Translations under genes and position numbers: made by a program
Source: Oceanicaulis sp. MMSF_3324
GTDB lineage: Bacteria > Pseudomonadota > Alphaproteobacteria > Caulobacterales > Maricaulaceae
DNA: 64,000 nt
Assembly (NCBI RefSeq): GCF_030733545.1
Contig: NZ_JASHIU010000003.1
Span: 186,001 to 250,000, forward strand
Direction: 5' to 3'
Part shown: one piece after another, positions 11,811 through 22,346 of the stretch
Layout of the letters: every line of letters starts with the position of its first letter
Numbering within the stretch: the stretch's first letter is position 1
Notes under the pieces: model-generated
What the model was told of the DNA's origin: nothing
Seen by the model: the letters and a program-made list of their open reading frames with translations, nothing else
Database searches by the model: none

Positions 11811-11845
11811 AAAAAACCCCGCGCCAATGGCGCGGGGTTTTTCTT
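11811..11845. terminator. Bidirectional intrinsic terminator between aldo/keto reductase and DUF1311 genes
   Basis: A 9-bp perfect stem (CCCCGCGCC / GGCGCGGGG) with a 3-nt loop has six As on its left and TTTTTTCTT on its right. It can therefore end both the plus-strand aldo/keto reductase transcript and the minus-strand gene whose stop overlaps its right edge. Confidence 0.9.
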
Positions 11846-12314
11846 AGAGCGAGGCGTTCATCAGCTGGTCTTCAAGCTGCAGCGCGCGCACCGCCGTGAT
11901 CTGATTGATGCAATAGGCGTGGGAAATGCCGCTCATGGAGCCGCCCGCATAGGCCATCGCACGCTGGTCGCATTCCGCATCCCGAAACTGGATCCACACA
12001 CGCTGAACCTGCTGGGTGGCGTCTCGCTGCTGTTGCAGGCCATTGGCTTGCATGGTTGCGCGCAAGTCGCCGTAAGCCGCATTCAATCGAGCGTCCCAGA
12101 TGGCGGCTTCGCGCCGCGCGCAAGCGATCATGCCCTGGGTCGTGTACCCGTCCTCGCTTTCGTCTTCGCACATCCTGCTGATTTCATTGATGCAAGAAGC
12201 CGGCGTTTCCGTTGAATCGATGCAGTTCTGCAAGATCGCAACGTCGTTATTGACCGGCGCCGTCGGCTTGGCCGCCTGGCTGACAAGCGCGAGCGAGAAC
12301 AGTTCGATGAGCAT
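11844..12314 (-). CDS. Exported DUF1311/LprI-like protein
   Basis: A 156-residue protein with a short signal-peptide-like start and a C-terminal DUF1311 (lysozyme-inhibitor LprI-type) domain. The domain's pattern is clear: C-A-R-x-E-A-x-x-W-D-x-x-L-N-x-x-Y near residues 66-80, QRVWIQFRDAECDQ near 105, and a last cysteine in YCINQITAVRALQLED. Six cysteines in all suggest disulphides in the periplasm. A GGGGGTG Shine-Dalgarno precedes the start, and a perfect 12-bp palindrome lies ten bases further up. Lysozyme inhibition is known only for some relatives, so the role is open. Confidence 0.78.
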   Translation of the reverse strand: MLIELFSLALVSQAAKPTAPVNNDVAILQNCIDSTETPASCINEISRMCEDESEDGYTTQGMIACARREAAIWDARLNAAYGDLRATMQANGLQQQRDATQQVQRVWIQFRDAECDQRAMAYAGGSMSGISHAYCINQITAVRALQLEDQLMNASL

Positions 12315-13530: not shown

Positions 13531-14703
13531 TTAGCGCGTCGCGTTGAACAGCTCGCGGCCAATCAGCATGCGGCGAACCTCGCTGGTGCCGGCGCCGATC
13601 TCGTAGAGCTTGGCGTCACGGAGCAGGCGGCCCGTCGGGTACTCATTGATATAGCCATTGCCGCCCAGGATCTGGATGGCGTCCAGCGCACACTGGGTAG
13701 CCGCCTCGGCGGCGAACAGGATCACGCCGGCTGCGTCCTGGCGCGTGGTCTTGCCCGCATCACAGGCTTGCGCCACGGCGTATACATAGGCGCGAGACGC
13801 GTTCATGCGGGTGTACATGTCGGCGATCTTGCCCTGGATCAGTTGGAACTCGCCGATCGGCTGGCCGAACTGCTTGCGCTCGTGCACGTACGGCATCACC
13901 ACATCCATGGCGGCCTGCATGATGCCGACCGGACCGGACGCCAGCACGGCGCGCTCATAATCGAGCCCGCTCATCAGCACACGAACGCCGCCGCCGACCT
14001 GGCCGAGCACATTCTCTTCGGGCACTTCACAGTCTTCAAAGACCAGCTCGCCGGTTTCAGAACCGCGCATGCCCAGCTTGTCGAGCTTCTGGGCGATGGA
14101 GAAGCCCTTCATCCCCTTCTCGATCAGGAAGGCGGTGATGCCTTTGGAACCCGCTTCGGGATCGGTCTTGGCGTAGACCACCAGGGTGTCCGCGCTCGGA
14201 CCATTGGTGATCCACATCTTGTTGCCGTTGAGGACGTAGTGATCGCCCTTTTTCACGGCTTTCAGACGCATGGACACGACATCGGAACCCGCGCCGGGTT
14301 CGGACATGGCCAGCGCGCCCACATGCTCGCCGGAGATCAGCTTGGGCAGGTATTTGCGCTTCTGCTCTTCGGTCCCGTTCAGACGGATCTGGTTGACGCA
14401 CAGATTGGAGTGCGCGCCATAGCTCAGGCCTACCGAGGCGCTGGCGCGGGAGATCTCTTCCATGGCGATGCAGTGTTCCACATAGCCCAGCCCGGAACCG
14501 CCATACTCTTCCTCGACGGTCAGGCCCAGAAGGCCCAGTTCACCCATCTTGGTCCAGAGATCTGCAGGGAACTCGTCCTTCGCGTCGATCTCGGCGGCGC
14601 GCGGAGCGATATGATCGGACGCGAACGACTGCACGGTATCGCGCAGCATGTCCGCGGTGTCGCCGAGCGGGAACTCGAGCGAGGGATACTGGTTCGAAAT
14701 CAT
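13531..14703 (-). CDS. liuA: Isovaleryl-CoA dehydrogenase
   Basis: This 390-residue FAD acyl-CoA dehydrogenase oxidises isovaleryl-CoA to 3-methylcrotonyl-CoA, the first CoA-ester step of leucine degradation. Two features separate it from other family members. The catalytic glutamate is at the IVD position (Glu250 in [13 protein letters not shown]). The usual acyl-CoA dehydrogenase glutamate near residue 370 is replaced in [10 protein letters not shown], as in [14 protein letters not shown] and KMWITNGP are flavin/substrate loops. The start at 14703 gives standard length. It lies 70 bases after spmX on the same strand. Confidence 0.93.
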
Positions 14704-14773: not shown

Positions 14774-16654
14774 CTACTTCTCGTTGCGGCGACCAATGAT
14801 GAACCAGGCCGAAGCCGCGCTCAGGAGCACGCCGGCGCCGAACACCGTGGGCCCAAGCGGCGAGTAGGCCAGCCCCAGCTCCATATAGGCGTCCATGTTC
14901 GCCGCGATATCCCAGCCGCCCAGGCCGACCATGACGCCGCCCAGAGCCAGCGAGGAAATGAACATGATATCCCCGCCCCGGCGTTGTGACGGCTCGGGAT
15001 CGTCCAGACCCGCGGTTTCACCGCCCGTCACCACAGCCGGGTCGAGCACCTCGATATCCTCATGAATATCCGAATGCGGCTCGTCCACATCCTTGTCCGG
15101 ATGATCCGGGCCCTCGATATCCCCGGACAGGCCCGGCGCGGACGCCGGCGCCAGCGCCGGATGCGGCGGCGCGGAGAACACCTGAAGGCCTGAAGGCTTG
15201 GCGTCTTCGGTGATGGCCGCGTCCGTACCCTCTTCGGCGTCCTCGGACACCTCGACGGAAAGCGCATTGTCCTTGTCAGCGAGCTCGGCCGGACGCCCGC
15301 TCACTTCGGTATCAGCCGAAGCGGCCTGCGGCAGAGATTCAGGCGCAATCGGCGTCACCTTGATGCTCGACACCTGAAGAGCGCTCTGCAGCGGGCTCAA
15401 CGGCACTGACGGCGCGCTGAACAGGCTTGATGAAGCCGGGTTCGGACGAACTTGAGGTTCGGGCGCGTCGTCAACCGGATTGGAGGCGCGCGGCGATTCC
15501 AGGCCCACATGAGCGGTCGACAGGAAGCTGTAGCCCAGCTGGGTCGTCTCTTCAGCGGTCTCGACCGGCGCGGCGGCGATGCTGGCGGACACCTGCTTGG
15601 CCATGCGGGCCATGACTTCGGTAATCGCCGCGTCCTGGGCCGCCTTGACCGCTTCGGATTTGGTGTCGTCTTCCTCGTCCGTCGCAGCCAGGGCCGTCGG
15701 TTCTTCAGGCGTCACTTCGACCTGGGCCGACTCTGCACTCGGCTCTGCGGCGTCTTCGTCATCGGCTTCCGTCGCCGCTTCAACAGCGTCTTCAGGGCCC
15801 TCAGCAGCGTCGTCAGCCTCTGCAACAGTGTCGGCACCACCCTCTGCATCCGTGGAGATAGCGTCCGCGCTCGGCTCGGGCGCCTCAACCGGCTCGGCGG
15901 CAGGCTCGATTTCCTCCAGAGCCAGCCGCTCGACCGGAAGCGCAGCGTCGTCCTCGTCAGGCAGCTCGAAGGCGATATCAAGCTCGACCAGTGCGGGCGT
16001 ATCAGCCTCCGGTTCCGAAGGGCCCTCGTCAGCCGCGACCGGCTCACCCTCGGCTTCGGCCTGGGGCTCCTCAACAACAGCCGTCTCGACCTCCGCCTCA
16101 ACGGCGACAGGCGCAGGCTCGCTTGCCGTTTCAGGCTCAGTAACGGGTTCAGGCGCGGCCTTCACCGGTGTTGCCGGCGTATCAATGACGGCGGCGCTGT
16201 CTTCAAGCCCAATCAGATAGAGCGCTTTTTCAGCCGCCCGGCGCGACACCAGACGATCAGACACCACCAGGCGTCCGTCCTGTTCAGCGCGAACCCAGGT
16301 CTCGATGGCGGCGGCCGCTTCGCGGTGACGACCATCGCGCGCCAGACGCGCCACGTCAGACACCTTGAACGCTCGCAGGCCAACCGACAGGGCGAACGAG
16401 ACCAGGGCGTCGCGCATGGGCGCGGCCATCTCGGCGCCGACGCTGGCGTCCAGCGTCTGCTCGGCCCGCATCACGTCGTAGATCAGCAGGAGTTCTGCGT
16501 CTTCGGGCTTGAGCGCCACGCCTTCCTTCGCAGCAGCGGTGTGGCCATAGCCCACCACCCAGCGTTTGCCACGCCGTTCGGCCGTTGCCAGGAAAGGCTC
16601 GTGAGCCTTGATCAGGTCGCGCGCGGCGCGGGTCGATTTCAAACGCGGTGTCAT
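14774..16654 (-). CDS. spmX: SpmX-like polar scaffold: muramidase-fold domain, long acidic linker, two C-terminal membrane helices
   Basis: A 626-residue protein with the architecture of Caulobacter SpmX, the stalk-pole protein that recruits and activates the DivJ histidine kinase. Residues 1-150 are a T4-lysozyme-like (GH24) domain with Glu19 (KAHEPF), VGYGHT, and the family ending [12 protein letters not shown]. There is no signal peptide. Residues about 155-555 are a low-complexity acidic linker very rich in E, D, A, P and V. Two hydrophobic helices (about 563-582 and 601-619) end the protein. This places the lysozyme-like domain in the cytoplasm as a docking module, as known for SpmX. The linker is longer than in C. 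crescentus SpmX (about 430 residues in total, from memory). A phage lysozyme is excluded by the linker and helices. Confidence 0.88.
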
Positions 16655-16722
16655 CGCTGTCCCGTTTCGAAACGGTTGGGTCTTAGGTTAAGAACCGCGA
16701 TGCAAACTCAGGACCGTCCGGG

Positions 16723-17706
16723 CTATGACGGCGAGAAAATGTCCACCGCGTCCAAGGCCGTAAAGGGTGCGAAGAAGCCTGCGCCGGATCCGCCGCCAAT
16801 TAACCAAATGCCGTCATCAAGCGTCACAACGCCTGATTCTGTGCGGGGCGCGGGCATGTCAGGCAGGCTGCGCCAGACCTCGGCGTCCGCATCCAGAACG
16901 ACATGAGAGGCGAGCGTGCGCCGCATGTCCGCGCTCCGTCCGCCAAAGACATGGATGTGCCCGTCCAGCACCGCAGCGGCGTGACCCGCACGCGGCTCGG
17001 GCAGATCCGGCGCCCGGCGCCAGCTTTGGGACACTGTATGGTAAACATCGACCCGAGGGGTGGCCTGCCCGTTTTGGGCGCCGCCAATCAGCCAGAGCTC
17101 TTCTCCCACCGCCACCGCAGCCGCGCCACGGCGATTGATCTCGACGGGCGCTTCCAGAGCGCTCCAGCTTTGCGTATCGGGCGCGTAGACGAACAGGCCC
17201 GGCGCGCCGTCCTCCCCGCCCAGAGCGTAAAGCTGATCATTCAGCGCCACGAGCGAAAGGCTCGCCTTCGGCCCCGGCAGTGCGGTCTCGCCGCTCCAGG
17301 CATCGGTGAGCGGGTCATAGGACCAGACGCTGTCGATGGGCTCGGCGCCGCCATCCGATGAATAGCCGCCCGCCACCCAGATCCGGTCTTCCAGCACGGC
17401 CATGCCGAAGCGCTCCAGCCCGACCGGCAGCGGTTTGAGGACGCGCCAGACCCCCACTTCGGGGTCATAGACTTCCAGGGCGTCGCGCGGATTGGCGAGC
17501 CCGGCCCCGCCGGCCGCATAGACCCGGCCATCCAGGACGGTGGCGGACAGGCCCGCGCGCGCCTGATCCAGCCGCGGCCCCAGGCTCCACGGCCCGGACA
17601 GGCGCAGGCCGCTGTCAAAGATCGGGCTCTCTGACACGGGCTCTTGCGCGGCCAGAGGCGACAGCCCGGCCAGCGCGATGAGGATCGCCAAAGCGGTCTT
17701 TTTCAT
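16723..17706 (-). CDS. Secreted Kelch-repeat beta-propeller protein
   Basis: A 327-residue protein with a clear signal peptide (KKTALAILIALAGLSPLAAQ, cleavage near residue 20) followed by six Kelch-type repeats of about 48 residues. Each has a YAAGG-, WVAGG-, YALGG-, WLIGG- or HVFGG-like double glycine and a later W (VWRVLKPLP, AWSGETALP, SWSALEAP, SWRRAPDLP, VWRSLPDMP). It should form a six-bladed propeller in the periplasm, possibly for carbohydrate or protein binding. The glyoxal-oxidase-type copper ligands are not evident. It follows mgtE on the same strand. Confidence 0.85.
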   Translation of the reverse strand: MKKTALAILIALAGLSPLAAQEPVSESPIFDSGLRLSGPWSLGPRLDQARAGLSATVLDGRVYAAGGAGLANPRDALEVYDPEVGVWRVLKPLPVGLERFGMAVLEDRIWVAGGYSSDGGAEPIDSVWSYDPLTDAWSGETALPGPKASLSLVALNDQLYALGGEDGAPGLFVYAPDTQSWSALEAPVEINRRGAAAVAVGEELWLIGGAQNGQATPRVDVYHTVSQSWRRAPDLPEPRAGHAAAVLDGHIHVFGGRSADMRRTLASHVVLDADAEVWRSLPDMPAPRTESGVVTLDDGIWLIGGGSGAGFFAPFTALDAVDIFSPS

Positions 17707-17753: not shown

Positions 17754-19142
17754 TTAAAGCAGAACAAGGGCGCCCAGGCCCAAAAACACGACAAATCCCA
17801 CCACATCGGTCACGGTGGTCACGAAAACGGACGAGGCGACAGCCGGGTCAGCGCCGAAATGCTTGAGCCCCAGAGGCACCAGCACCCCGGCCAAACCGGC
17901 GATAGCAAGATTGATCACCATGGCGATCGCGATGACGTAGCCCAGCTGCGGTTCCTGGAACCAGACTGCGGCGATCACCCCCATGACGACCGCAAAGATG
18001 AGTCCGTTCACGAGCCCCGCCGCGGCTTCACGCCAGACAAAGCGTAACGAGTTCGCGCCGGTCAGGTCGCGCGTGGCGAGCGCGCGCACGGCGACGGCCA
18101 GCGATTGGGTGCCGGCGTTACCGCCCATGGATGCGACGATCGGCATCAGCACCGCAAGCGCCACCAATTGGGCGATGGCCTGGTCAAACAGGGCGATGAC
18201 GAGCGAGGCCAGAACCGCGGTGCCCAGATTGACCAGCAGCCAGGGCGCGCGCGATTTCACCGATTCCCAGACCGTGTCGGCAAGGCCCGCCTCGTTCACC
18301 CCGGCGAGCGCCAGCAGGTCTTCCTTGTTCTCTTCCTGGATGACGTCGACGATATCGTCGACGGTCAGCATGCCCTTCAGCCGCCCGGAATCGTCCACGA
18401 CCGGCGCCGAGATCAGGTGGTATTTCTCAAACAGATAGGCGGCGTCTTCCTGATCATCCTCGGGCCGGATTGTGATCTTCGCCGACTCCATCAACTCCGA
18501 CAGCGGGGTCTGACGCTGGGACCGCATCAGGCGGCTCACCGGCACGGCGCCAATAGGACGGAAGCCTTCATCCACGATGAAGACCTCGAAGAACAGATCC
18601 GGCAGCTCTTCGCCCGCCAGACGCATATGGTCGATCGTGTGCCCCACGGTCCAGAAGGACGGCGCAGCGACGAACTCGCGTTGCATCAGGCGGCCGGCGG
18701 TCTCCTCTTCAAAGGAGAGCGAGGCTTCGAGATGTTCGCGGTCTTCCGCGGACACCGCCGCCAGAACCGCTTCACGCACTTCAGGCTCAAGCTCCTCGAC
18801 GACCATGGTCTTGTCGTCGGAATCCAGTTCCTCGAGCGCTTCGACGATCTGCTGGGGCTCGAGCAGCTCAAAAATCCCCGCTCGGGTGTCATAGCCGATC
18901 TCGGCCAGCACCTCGCCGGTGAACACCGACGAATCAAGCTCCGCCAGATGACGCTGCTGATCCCAGCTCAACTGCTCGATCAGGTCGGCGACATCGGCCG
19001 GGTGCAAGGGTTCAAGCAGCTGCCGGATGAGTACAGGGTCTTCATCGGCGATCGCGCCGATCAACTCCACAAGCACGCCCTCGGGCAGGTCCATGCCGGC
19101 GGTCACTTCATCACGGTGCAGCTCTTCAACCGGTTGCGTCAT
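17754..19142 (-). CDS. mgtE: Magnesium transporter MgtE
   Basis: A 462-residue inner-membrane Mg2+ channel/transporter. An acidic N-terminal helical domain (about residues 20-130, with HPADVADLIEQLSWDQ) and a pair of CBS domains (about 135-260, with MQREFVA, PVSRLMRSQ and GMLTVDDIVDVIQEE) make up the cytosolic Mg2+ sensor. Five membrane helices follow from about 285. The pore signature PIVASMGGNAGTQSLAVAVRALATRDL is complete. The start at 19142 has GCGAGG in front; the longer frame to 19184 is not supported. Confidence 0.93.
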   Translation of the reverse strand: MTQPVEELHRDEVTAGMDLPEGVLVELIGAIADEDPVLIRQLLEPLHPADVADLIEQLSWDQQRHLAELDSSVFTGEVLAEIGYDTRAGIFELLEPQQIVEALEELDSDDKTMVVEELEPEVREAVLAAVSAEDREHLEASLSFEEETAGRLMQREFVAAPSFWTVGHTIDHMRLAGEELPDLFFEVFIVDEGFRPIGAVPVSRLMRSQRQTPLSELMESAKITIRPEDDQEDAAYLFEKYHLISAPVVDDSGRLKGMLTVDDIVDVIQEENKEDLLALAGVNEAGLADTVWESVKSRAPWLLVNLGTAVLASLVIALFDQAIAQLVALAVLMPIVASMGGNAGTQSLAVAVRALATRDLTGANSLRFVWREAAAGLVNGLIFAVVMGVIAAVWFQEPQLGYVIAIAMVINLAIAGLAGVLVPLGLKHFGADPAVASSVFVTTVTDVVGFVVFLGLGALVLL

Positions 19143-19247
19143 GGCGCCTCGCGTCTGTCTGAGGGGGAAACAGGGTGCAGACAATACGATAGGCGTGAGG
19201 CGCGACGAAATCGAGACAGCGAATGCGGTTGATGCGAAAAAACAAAA

Positions 19248-20484: not shown

Positions 20485-21000
20485 CTAGCGACGGGCCGTC
20501 CAATAGCCCACTGCGGCCAGCACCAGCCAGAAGCCCCAAACGGAGGGCCAGGCGCCTGATTGCAGGATGGCCATGGCGAATTCAGGGTCCGAGCTGAGAC
20601 GGTTCTGATAGGCCTGCTGGATGACGGGATCGCTCGCGGCTGCCTGGACCGCCGCCGGGTCATTCATATTCACGCCCTGATCTTCCAGAAACGCGACAAA
20701 CTGCGGATAGGCGCGGATCGCCATCGCGAACAGCCCCGTGAGCATCTTCACCACCGTGGCCCCTGCCAGCACGCCCAGGGCCAGGAACGCGGGTTTGCCC
20801 AACGTTCGGTAGCGGTTGATGAACACCGTGCTGACAAAGAAGGCGATCACCAGCCAGGACAGCAAGCCCGCCGCCGGCGAAAAGCTGATCCGGACCGCAT
20901 CCAGCGCCGCGATCACGCCCAGGCCGATCCAGAATTCGTCCTCGGTGGAGCGGAAAACCGGCATGAAGGCCGTCTTCAGATCAAAGCTGGGCTGGGTCAC
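20485..21000 (-). CDS. Membrane protein, divergent DUF805-like
   Basis: A 171-residue protein with four predicted helices. It begins with GTG behind GAGGA. The layout copies the two DUF805 proteins encoded just upstream. There is an aromatic FW near the first helix, and INRYRTLGKP stands where DUF805 proteins have KRLHDAGKSG. A polar insertion of about 50 residues precedes the last helix. The similarity is weak but the position and architecture suggest a decayed or diverged third paralogue. The function is unknown. Confidence 0.6.
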   Translation of the reverse strand: MTQPSFDLKTAFMPVFRSTEDEFWIGLGVIAALDAVRISFSPAAGLLSWLVIAFFVSTVFINRYRTLGKPAFLALGVLAGATVVKMLTGLFAMAIRAYPQFVAFLEDQGVNMNDPAAVQAAASDPVIQQAYQNRLSSDPEFAMAILQSGAWPSVWGFWLVLAAVGYWTARR

Positions 21001-21089
21001 GCTGGTTCCTCATAGACAAACGCGCGCCCCGGTATGAAACGGAGCGCGCGTCCATGGCAAGCCCGCCCTGCGCTGCAGGGCGGATTCAA
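21001..21089 (-). terminator. Two adjacent GC-rich hairpins downstream of a DUF805 gene
   Basis: The space between two minus-strand genes holds CCGCCCTG/CAGGGCGG (21063-21070 with 21076-21083) and ACGCGCGC/GCGCGCGT (21020-21027 with 21044-21051). Only the second is followed by a short TTTGTC run. One or both may attenuate transcription from 21090-21665 into 20485-21000. Confidence 0.4.
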
Positions 21090-21665
21090 TCACTGCTGAT
21101 CGGGATCTTCCGGCGTCTCGACCGGGGATTCGGCGGGCATGGCCTCCGGCGCGCCCTCGGCGCCCGGAACCGGACCATAGCGGTTCTCTTCCGGGTCCTG
21201 CTTGAGCACGGCGTTGGCGCCGAAAATCATGCCGATGGACACAAGCGCGCTCAGAATCGCGCTGGGCAGCGCCGTGGCTTGAGACGAGGCTTCGCTGGCT
21301 TGCATGATGGCGTCGGGATTACCCGTCTCCATGGCGGCGGCCATCATCCGGGCGGATTCGCCGCCGAACATCACCGTGACGATCTGGTTGACGATCATCA
21401 GCAGGACGAACCAGACCACCAGCGCCACAAGAAAAAGCCAGCCGGACTTACCGGCATCGTGCAGGCGTTTGGACCAGATGCAGACCCATGGATAGATCAA
21501 CGCCAGGCTGACGATCAGGGACAGGGCCCCTGCGGCAACGACCGGTAGGAACAGCGGCGTCAGTCCGATGACAAAAGCGATCGCAACCAGCACAAGGCCG
21601 GCTTTCTGGAAGTCCGCCGGCGCCATCCGGCCGTTTGCAGACATCATGGAGGCTACAAGGCTCAT
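21090..21665 (-). CDS. DUF805 family membrane protein
   Basis: A 191-residue inner-membrane protein. DUF805 hallmarks are an N-terminal GRMAPADFQKAG segment, paired helices, and IWSKRLHDAGKSGWLFLV near residue 65. The C-terminal tail is proline/glutamate rich (ENRYGPVPG...). GAGGGG precedes the ATG. It belongs to a minus-strand group of three similar genes (20485-22346). The family has no fixed function; small relatives are common near stress and phage genes. Confidence 0.8.
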   Translation of the reverse strand: MSLVASMMSANGRMAPADFQKAGLVLVAIAFVIGLTPLFLPVVAAGALSLIVSLALIYPWVCIWSKRLHDAGKSGWLFLVALVVWFVLLMIVNQIVTVMFGGESARMMAAAMETGNPDAIMQASEASSQATALPSAILSALVSIGMIFGANAVLKQDPEENRYGPVPGAEGAPEAMPAESPVETPEDPDQQ

Positions 21666-21785
21666 GGGGTCCCCTCAGTATCAGAATGAGTCTGGTGCGT
21701 TTCATTATTCCCGCCGGGGCGGGTAACCGATCACCATCCTCTCTTGATCCGCGATCAAGGGCAATGGCGAACCGGGCGAAAACGC

Positions 21786-22346
21786 CTAGCCTTCCGCAGG
21801 GGGCGCGCCTGCGGACCGTGTCGCCGCCTGCGTGTAACGGGCCGATTTCGGCGCCGGGCCATAAGCGTTGTCATCCGGGTCCGCCGACAGAACGCCCACC
21901 CAGATCGTATAGACCAGCCAGGTCAGCGCCGAGAGCGACCAGAAGAGCAACAGGCCGCCAGCCGCGATGACGCCGCCGCTCACCAGCTGCGCCGTGGCCT
22001 GGGGCGACAGATCTCCCGATTCCAGCGCTTCCCAACCGCCCGGCTTGCCGACGACATCCAGGAAGGGCGCGATGGCGGCCCCACCGGCGGCGACCACGCC
22101 AAAGCCGAGCAAGGACAGTGAAATCGCCCAGGGAATCAGATGGATCCAGCCGGTCTTTCCGGCATCGTGCAGACGCTTGGCCGGCACCACCGCCCCCACA
22201 TACAACAGGCCGAGAAAGACGAGCCCGCCAATGAAGGGCACCGGGGTCAGGAACAGATTGGCCAGCACCACAATAAGCATGCCCAACCAGTATTCGTTCT
22301 GGCCGATGCGTCCATGGGGACTGAAGAGGATGTGACCGAGATTCAT
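21786..22346 (-). CDS. DUF805 family membrane protein
   Basis: A 186-residue inner-membrane protein with a complete DUF805 pattern: LFSPHGRIGQNEYWLGML at residues 7-24, then VPAKRLHDAGKTGWIHLIPW near 55-75, and a tail DPDDNAYGPAPKS like that of the neighbouring paralogue (DPEENRYGPVPG). GGGAG precedes the ATG. It is the first gene of the three-gene minus-strand group; 120 bases separate it from the next. Duplication from a common ancestor is the simplest explanation. Confidence 0.85.
   Translation of the reverse strand: MNLGHILFSPHGRIGQNEYWLGMLIVVLANLFLTPVPFIGGLVFLGLLYVGAVVPAKRLHDAGKTGWIHLIPWAISLSLLGFGVVAAGGAAIAPFLDVVGKPGGWEALESGDLSPQATAQLVSGGVIAAGGLLLFWSLSALTWLVYTIWVGVLSADPDDNAYGPAPKSARYTQAATRSAGAPPAEG

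Follow-up and report, generated by a model that had tools for sequence, protein, structure and literature searches.

A single-copy SpmX orthologue in Oceanicaulis sp. MMSF_3324: its conserved locus and its motif-bearing acidic linker

The spmX locus of Oceanicaulis sp. MMSF_3324 was analysed within a stretch of 64,000 nucleotides, referred to here as the window (contig NZ_JASHIU010000003.1, positions 186,001 to 250,000 of the forward strand). The genes of the locus and the main parts of the SpmX protein are given below in window coordinates:

13531-14697, minus strand: isovaleryl-CoA dehydrogenase gene (liuA type, an acyl-CoA dehydrogenase), the conserved downstream neighbour of spmX
14774-16654, minus strand: spmX orthologue, 626 aa, recognised from its open reading frame, PF00959, the NCBIfam SpmX model, and sequence and fold matches to PDB entry 6h9d
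14780-14974, minus strand: two C-terminal transmembrane helices, residues 561-585 and 600-625, predicted from hydropathy and AlphaFold2
14975-16204, minus strand: disordered linker, residues 151-560, acidic and rich in Pro and Ala
16205-16654, minus strand: muramidase-like domain, residues 1-150
16701-16716, minus strand: sigma54-type -24/-12 promoter-like element CGGTCCTGAGTTTGCA (GG-N10-GC), between spmX and the kelch gene, which lie 68 bp apart
16723-17706, minus strand: kelch-repeat protein gene with a signal-peptide-like start, the upstream neighbour in Maricaulaceae
17754-19184, minus strand: MgtE magnesium transporter gene, upstream, also kept in Caulobacter and Asticcacaulis

SpmX descends from a phage lysozyme that was domesticated into a scaffold for cell polarity, a case already known. 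It marks one pole of dimorphic bacteria, many of them stalked, and roles in condensate formation and, for Asticcacaulis, in the placing of the stalk have been ascribed to its linker. In the window, the spmX reading frame runs from an ATG at 16654 down to a stop codon at 14774. Residues 29-142 match Pfam Phage_lysozyme (PF00959, E 3.3e-19), Glu19 is present, and the N-terminal 60 residues contain no signal-like hydrophobic stretch (15-residue Kyte-Doolittle means reach at most 0.65). In the AlphaFold2 model, built on 35 aligned orthologues, the pLDDT is mostly above 90 in the muramidase domain and mostly below 50 in the linker, and the two C-terminal helices have block values of 81-96. The linker, taken as residues 151-561, consists of about 411 residues, including 100 D or E, 15 K or R and 48 P; an automatic cut was used for linker lengths across species, by which the window linker measures 413 aa. 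Reading frame, Pfam, hydropathy and AlphaFold2 agree on the order proposed in an earlier note on this DNA, i.e., a lysozyme-like domain with Glu19, an acidic linker and two C-terminal membrane helices. They also bear out its statements that the protein lacks a signal peptide and has 626 residues, some 400 of them in the linker. The length of about 430 aa given there for C. crescentus SpmX is likewise in line with the NCBIfam model, which has 430 positions, and with the 411-437 aa of most Caulobacter-type orthologues. The architecture is not due to chance, since it is conserved throughout the order, as are the domain and the locus. Of the genomes sampled, 113 of 119 in the family and 244 of 249 in the order carry a relative of the domain. 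The genome under study contains a single copy of the spmX-like domain.

The gene order kelch-spmX-liuA recurs in 14 of the 15 named Maricaulaceae loci, the remaining locus ending before liuA. The longer order lipB-mgtE-kelch-spmX-liuA is found in Oceanicaulis, Marinicauda and others, and mgtE is missing from some Maricaulaceae loci (e.g., those of Alkalicaulis and Glycocaulis). All five Caulobacter-type loci examined show the order mgtE-spmX-liuA-patatin without the kelch gene, and mgtE-spmX is kept in Asticcacaulis, with liuA outside the stretch examined; a kelch gene between mgtE and spmX was not found in the loci of either genus. Judged from these gene orders, mgtE-spmX-liuA-patatin is the ancestral locus, retained in Caulobacter. 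The proximity to liuA, rather than to a cell-cycle gene, had been pointed out as unusual. The neighbour is indeed of the isovaleryl-CoA dehydrogenase kind, but it is an ancestral neighbour of spmX, also present in Caulobacter, and the adjacency therefore supports spmX orthology. A displaced or newly acquired gene beside liuA is ruled out, the locus being ancestral.

Elsewhere in the window, a lysozyme-inhibitor gene of the LprI family is located at 11844-12314, about 2.5 kb from spmX. It is poorly conserved (31-47%) and was not found at most relatives' loci, and its closeness to spmX is probably a coincidence. Three consecutive look-alike genes for small membrane proteins, DUF805-like by appearance, occupy positions 20485-22346 and are variably kept in relatives.

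The affiliation of the muramidase-like domain was assessed by sequence, predicted fold and phylogeny. The top match in a PDB sequence search was the SpmX muramidase of A. excentricus (6h9d, E 1e-25), ahead of the next lysozyme at 4e-8, and a fold search with the AlphaFold2 model again placed 6h9d first (TM 0.82 by target length); the similarity of residues 1-150 to SpmX muramidase domains, on which the earlier note had made its assignment depend, is thereby evident. Identity in the domain is 65-96% to core Maricaulaceae, with Oceanicaulis sp. HTCC2633 as the nearest named genome (96%) and further named matches in Woodsholea, Glycocaulis, Marinicauda and Alkalicaulis, and about 40% to the SpmX proteins of Caulobacter and Asticcacaulis. 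The NCBIfam SpmX model (NF051871) scores the window protein at 85.6 bits, Asticcacaulis SpmX at 211 bits and Caulobacter-type proteins at 736-843 bits. The first two fall below the cut-off of 700 bits, which is a naming threshold and not a biological defining feature; it is genus-narrow, because Asticcacaulis SpmX also lies far below it. In a 68-row tree, the window protein is positioned inside the Maricaulaceae SpmX group with support of 100/100, and four phage lysozymes cluster with other lysozymes of relatives, outside that group. Within this sequence tree the place of the window protein is settled, the deepest SpmX branching being left unsettled.

Examination of the E-8-D/C-5-T triad of phage lysozymes shows that only the Glu is retained in the window protein: Val33 stands where the Thr would be, and the Asp/Cys is missing, a loss shared with other SpmX rows. 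On the aligned sequences, these losses fit a binding rather than a lytic domain; in Caulobacter SpmX, lysozyme activity was undetectable (PMC5347347). Pfam Phage_lysozyme and PHROG endolysin matches would accord with a cell-wall-active endolysin of phage or GTA origin that only looks like SpmX, as would the weak similarity to BgtA, a GTA endolysin model (53 bits; its cut-off is 315), but such an identity is virtually excluded by the tree, by the absence of the catalytic Asp/Cys and Thr and of a signal peptide, by a conserved housekeeping locus with no phage or lysis-cassette setting, and by the low similarity of the closest protein in a phage search (34% identity, 66 bits, against 40-96% to SpmX), so that the closer kinship with phage endolysins contemplated in the earlier note does not hold. 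The assignment of the window protein to SpmX is well supported: the sequence, the predicted structure, the position in the tree, the conserved synteny and the promoter-like element all favour it.

Other lysozyme-like proteins were noted among the relatives. Unlike SpmX, the second lysozyme proteins found in some Maricaulaceae (L158, L159, L160 and L164; open frames of about 658-709 aa) have two tandem muramidase domains, the first of which keeps an E..TYLD..T active-site pattern that the second has lost. Two short-linker proteins of family f5 (L114 and L115) branch beside the phage group in the 68-row tree; perhaps they were captured separately, or they reflect domestication at an early stage.

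The promoter-like element upstream of spmX has counterparts in nearly all spmX orthologues, in which a GG-N10-GC element starts at roughly -54 to -70, counted from the start codon. At least 9 of the 12 consensus positions are matched in 53 of 90 loci, compared to 3.2 expected from shuffles. The window element matches 8 of the 12, a score reached by 3% of shuffles, and the argument therefore rests on the conserved position in related sequences. The occurrence of a sigma54-type element at a similar place across relatives suggests conserved timing. TacA acts with sigma54. In C. crescentus, spmX is a TacA target (PMC7010744). The present genome codes for a sigma54-type response regulator (L149) whose layout fits a sigma54 activator; no model names it, and it may be the TacA of this species. 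A perfect palindrome, CCGTTTCGAAACGG, was also observed at window positions 16662-16675, just before the spmX start codon, and akin sequences ending CGGAACGGGACA are conserved there across many Maricaulaceae orthologues, possibly as a leader or regulator site.

The linker had been singled out in the earlier note as very long. It is about 1.9 times as long as the linker of most Caulobacter-type proteins (about 190-225 aa), and when 87 complete, distinct orthologues are ranked by linker length (median 278 aa) it shares places 15 to 17. The SpmX proteins of the sister species have 596 and 643 aa, that of Woodsholea has 853 (linker 635), those of genus g9 have up to 840 (linker 652) and those of Asticcacaulis 810-844 (linkers 588-622); the shortest orthologue candidates are the two family f5 proteins mentioned above (323 aa, linker about 92). 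Of the 113 family members, whose open frames have a median of 493 aa, 21 (19%) equal or exceed the 626 aa of the window protein. The linker is thus no anomaly, its length being shared with the sister species, and its status as an outlier is ruled out by the length distributions of family and order. Growth of the linker by tandem duplication was also considered and rejected, as the gene contains just one trivial 8-bp repeat.

Alignment of core Maricaulaceae SpmX revealed five short conserved motifs in the linker, which map as follows:

15962-15994, minus strand: motif M1 (VELDIAF), residues 221-231
15578-15661, minus strand: isolated linker helix, residues 332-359, with motif M2 (VMARMA; residues 339-358)
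15518-15541, minus strand: motif M3, QLGYSFLS (LGYSFL), residues 372-379
15095-15172, minus strand: motif M4 (APPHP..GLSGD), residues 495-520
15017-15052, minus strand: juxtamembrane motif M5 (LDPAVV), residues 535-546

With matrices made without the window protein and its two sister species, each motif scores higher, exactly at its aligned place, than all of 1000 shuffled versions of the window linker; M5, the weakest of the five, does so narrowly (16.8 bits, best shuffle 15.5). The motifs are present in 22-23 of the 23 core orthologues, and their order is kept in all 26 proteins with at least four of them; the matrices for these two counts omit only the protein being scored, and close relatives help. 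M2 falls within the sole linker helix predicted with confidence by AlphaFold2 (block pLDDT 72-86). Its core, V-x-A-R-M/L, occurs in 13 of 16 Caulobacter-type orthologues (e.g., AAAAVSARLEAIL; 0.16 expected from shuffles), a count that overstates the evidence, given that the orthologues are closely related and that both groups had been viewed before the pattern was picked. The M2 core was not found in Asticcacaulis, in distant genera of the family or in families f4 and f5, and M1, M3, M4 and M5 were essentially not found in Caulobacteraceae. A study of C. crescentus SpmX (PMC5347347) proposes that a 19-residue proline-free helix aids oligomerisation; the M2 helix resembles the element described there and may be the same helix. 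Among the core orthologues, the length of the acidic M1-M2 spacer correlates with total length (0.95, a value in which one very long Woodsholea protein weighs heavily), and most of the length differences appear to come from this spacer, which precedes the helix.

These observations bear on the proposal, made in the earlier note, that linker expansion reflects a different polarity programme. The Asticcacaulis linker has grown by more than 370 aa, stalk position in that genus is set by the linker or membrane region of SpmX, and the protein has been co-opted for stalk placement (review PMC4460556). By this precedent, a linker nearly twice that of Caulobacter might signify an altered polarity or stalk-placement programme in the present species. 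We consider this quite unlikely, however, as short and long linkers coexist within one genus and family and carry an identical series of motifs, length follows mostly one acidic spacer, and the Asticcacaulis linker is of another kind, with 16-17% K+R and without the M2 motif. No evidence of a different programme emerged; PopZ and a DivJ-like kinase are encoded in the genome, and the promoter element is conserved.

PopZ, DivJ and other partners were sought in the genome by family searches. PopZ was detected with 163 bits (cut-off 125), and the kinase L128 aligns with almost the entire DivJ model (positions 2-528 of 531; 279 bits, below the Caulobacter-specific cut-off of 1000); the other kinases scanned match this model in the catalytic part only. 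A CckA-like kinase is also present (641 bits). PopZ and the DivJ-like kinase are thus observed in the same genome as the orthologue, with its architecture, conserved locus, promoter-like element and conserved motifs. In Caulobacter, the SpmX lysozyme domain has PopZ and DivJ as binding partners, oligomerisation requires the linker (PMC5347347), and the linker forms condensates with PopZ (PMC8849385). In Hyphomonas, DivJ foci need SpmX (PMC7200025).

The explanation we favour, and hold to be highly probable, is that the window gene is an spmX orthologue whose sigma54-timed product binds PopZ at one pole, self-assembles and concentrates a DivJ-type kinase; for binding, localisation, assembly and timing it draws on the work on Caulobacter, Asticcacaulis and Hyphomonas. 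A sigma54 promoter of the TacA type would drive the gene at the swarmer-to-stalked transition. The SpmX protein would sit in the inner membrane via the two C-terminal helices, with the long N-terminal part in the cytoplasm, and the non-lytic lysozyme-like domain would bind PopZ at one pole. The isolated linker helix would help SpmX to self-assemble, and SpmX would concentrate the DivJ-type histidine kinase at that pole. The acidic linker would serve as a flexible, condensate-prone spacer with short conserved contact motifs, its length varying mostly in the acidic stretch before the helix, and a new polarity programme would not be needed.

A variant with some, if small, chance of being correct is that SpmX acts here mainly as a PopZ-bound pole organiser with a small role in DivJ signalling, DivJ/PleC mattering less outside Caulobacter. 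The DivJ/PleC-DivK module has minor effects only in H. neptunium (PMC7200025), and the DivJ-like kinase found here is divergent; the H. neptunium DivJ, however, still requires SpmX for its polar focus (PMC7200025). More tentatively, and at somewhat less than even chances, the linker could be a beads-on-a-string scaffold, in which M1-M5 dock or assemble and evolution tunes the reach from the pole-binding domain to the motifs by lengthening one acidic spacer. The motif chain itself is a modest, testable addition to the known picture of SpmX. As a candidate for the proposed C. crescentus oligomerisation element, the helix common to Maricaulaceae and Caulobacter is specific and open to mutation, and the linkers of natural orthologues, which span about 90 to 650 aa, form a series for separating the binding, assembly and length-setting parts. 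With a false anomaly removed, a sharper question is left, one testable detail of which is where linker length is free to change.

The window protein can be compared with four known systems. Other Maricaulaceae SpmX proteins (Oceanicaulis HTCC2633, Woodsholea, Glycocaulis and Marinicauda) share with it the 65-96% identical muramidase domain, the five linker motifs in the same order, the kelch-spmX-liuA locus and the promoter element, and differ in the lengths of the inter-motif spacers (totals of 439-853 aa). Caulobacter SpmX (NF051871; L062-L075) has the same domain order, Glu19, an acidic proline-rich linker with the helix motif V-x-A-R-L, the mgtE-spmX-liuA-patatin locus and the promoter element, whereas its linker is about half as long, M1, M3, M4 and M5 were not detected in it, no kelch gene precedes spmX, and the window protein, unlike the Caulobacter-type proteins, lies below the NCBIfam naming cut-off. 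GH24 phage endolysins (P22, R21 and APSE P13) possess the lysozyme fold and the catalytic Glu, but the window domain is without the Asp/Cys and Thr of their triad, and the protein has a linker and a membrane anchor and no lysis cassette. Asticcacaulis SpmX (6h9d; L048-L050), the closest structural match, has a muramidase domain of the same fold, 40-41% identical and with Glu19, a long linker, two C-terminal membrane helices, mgtE upstream and the promoter element; unlike that of the window protein, its linker of 588-622 aa is nearly charge-balanced (21% D+E, 16-17% K+R), and M2 was not found in it.
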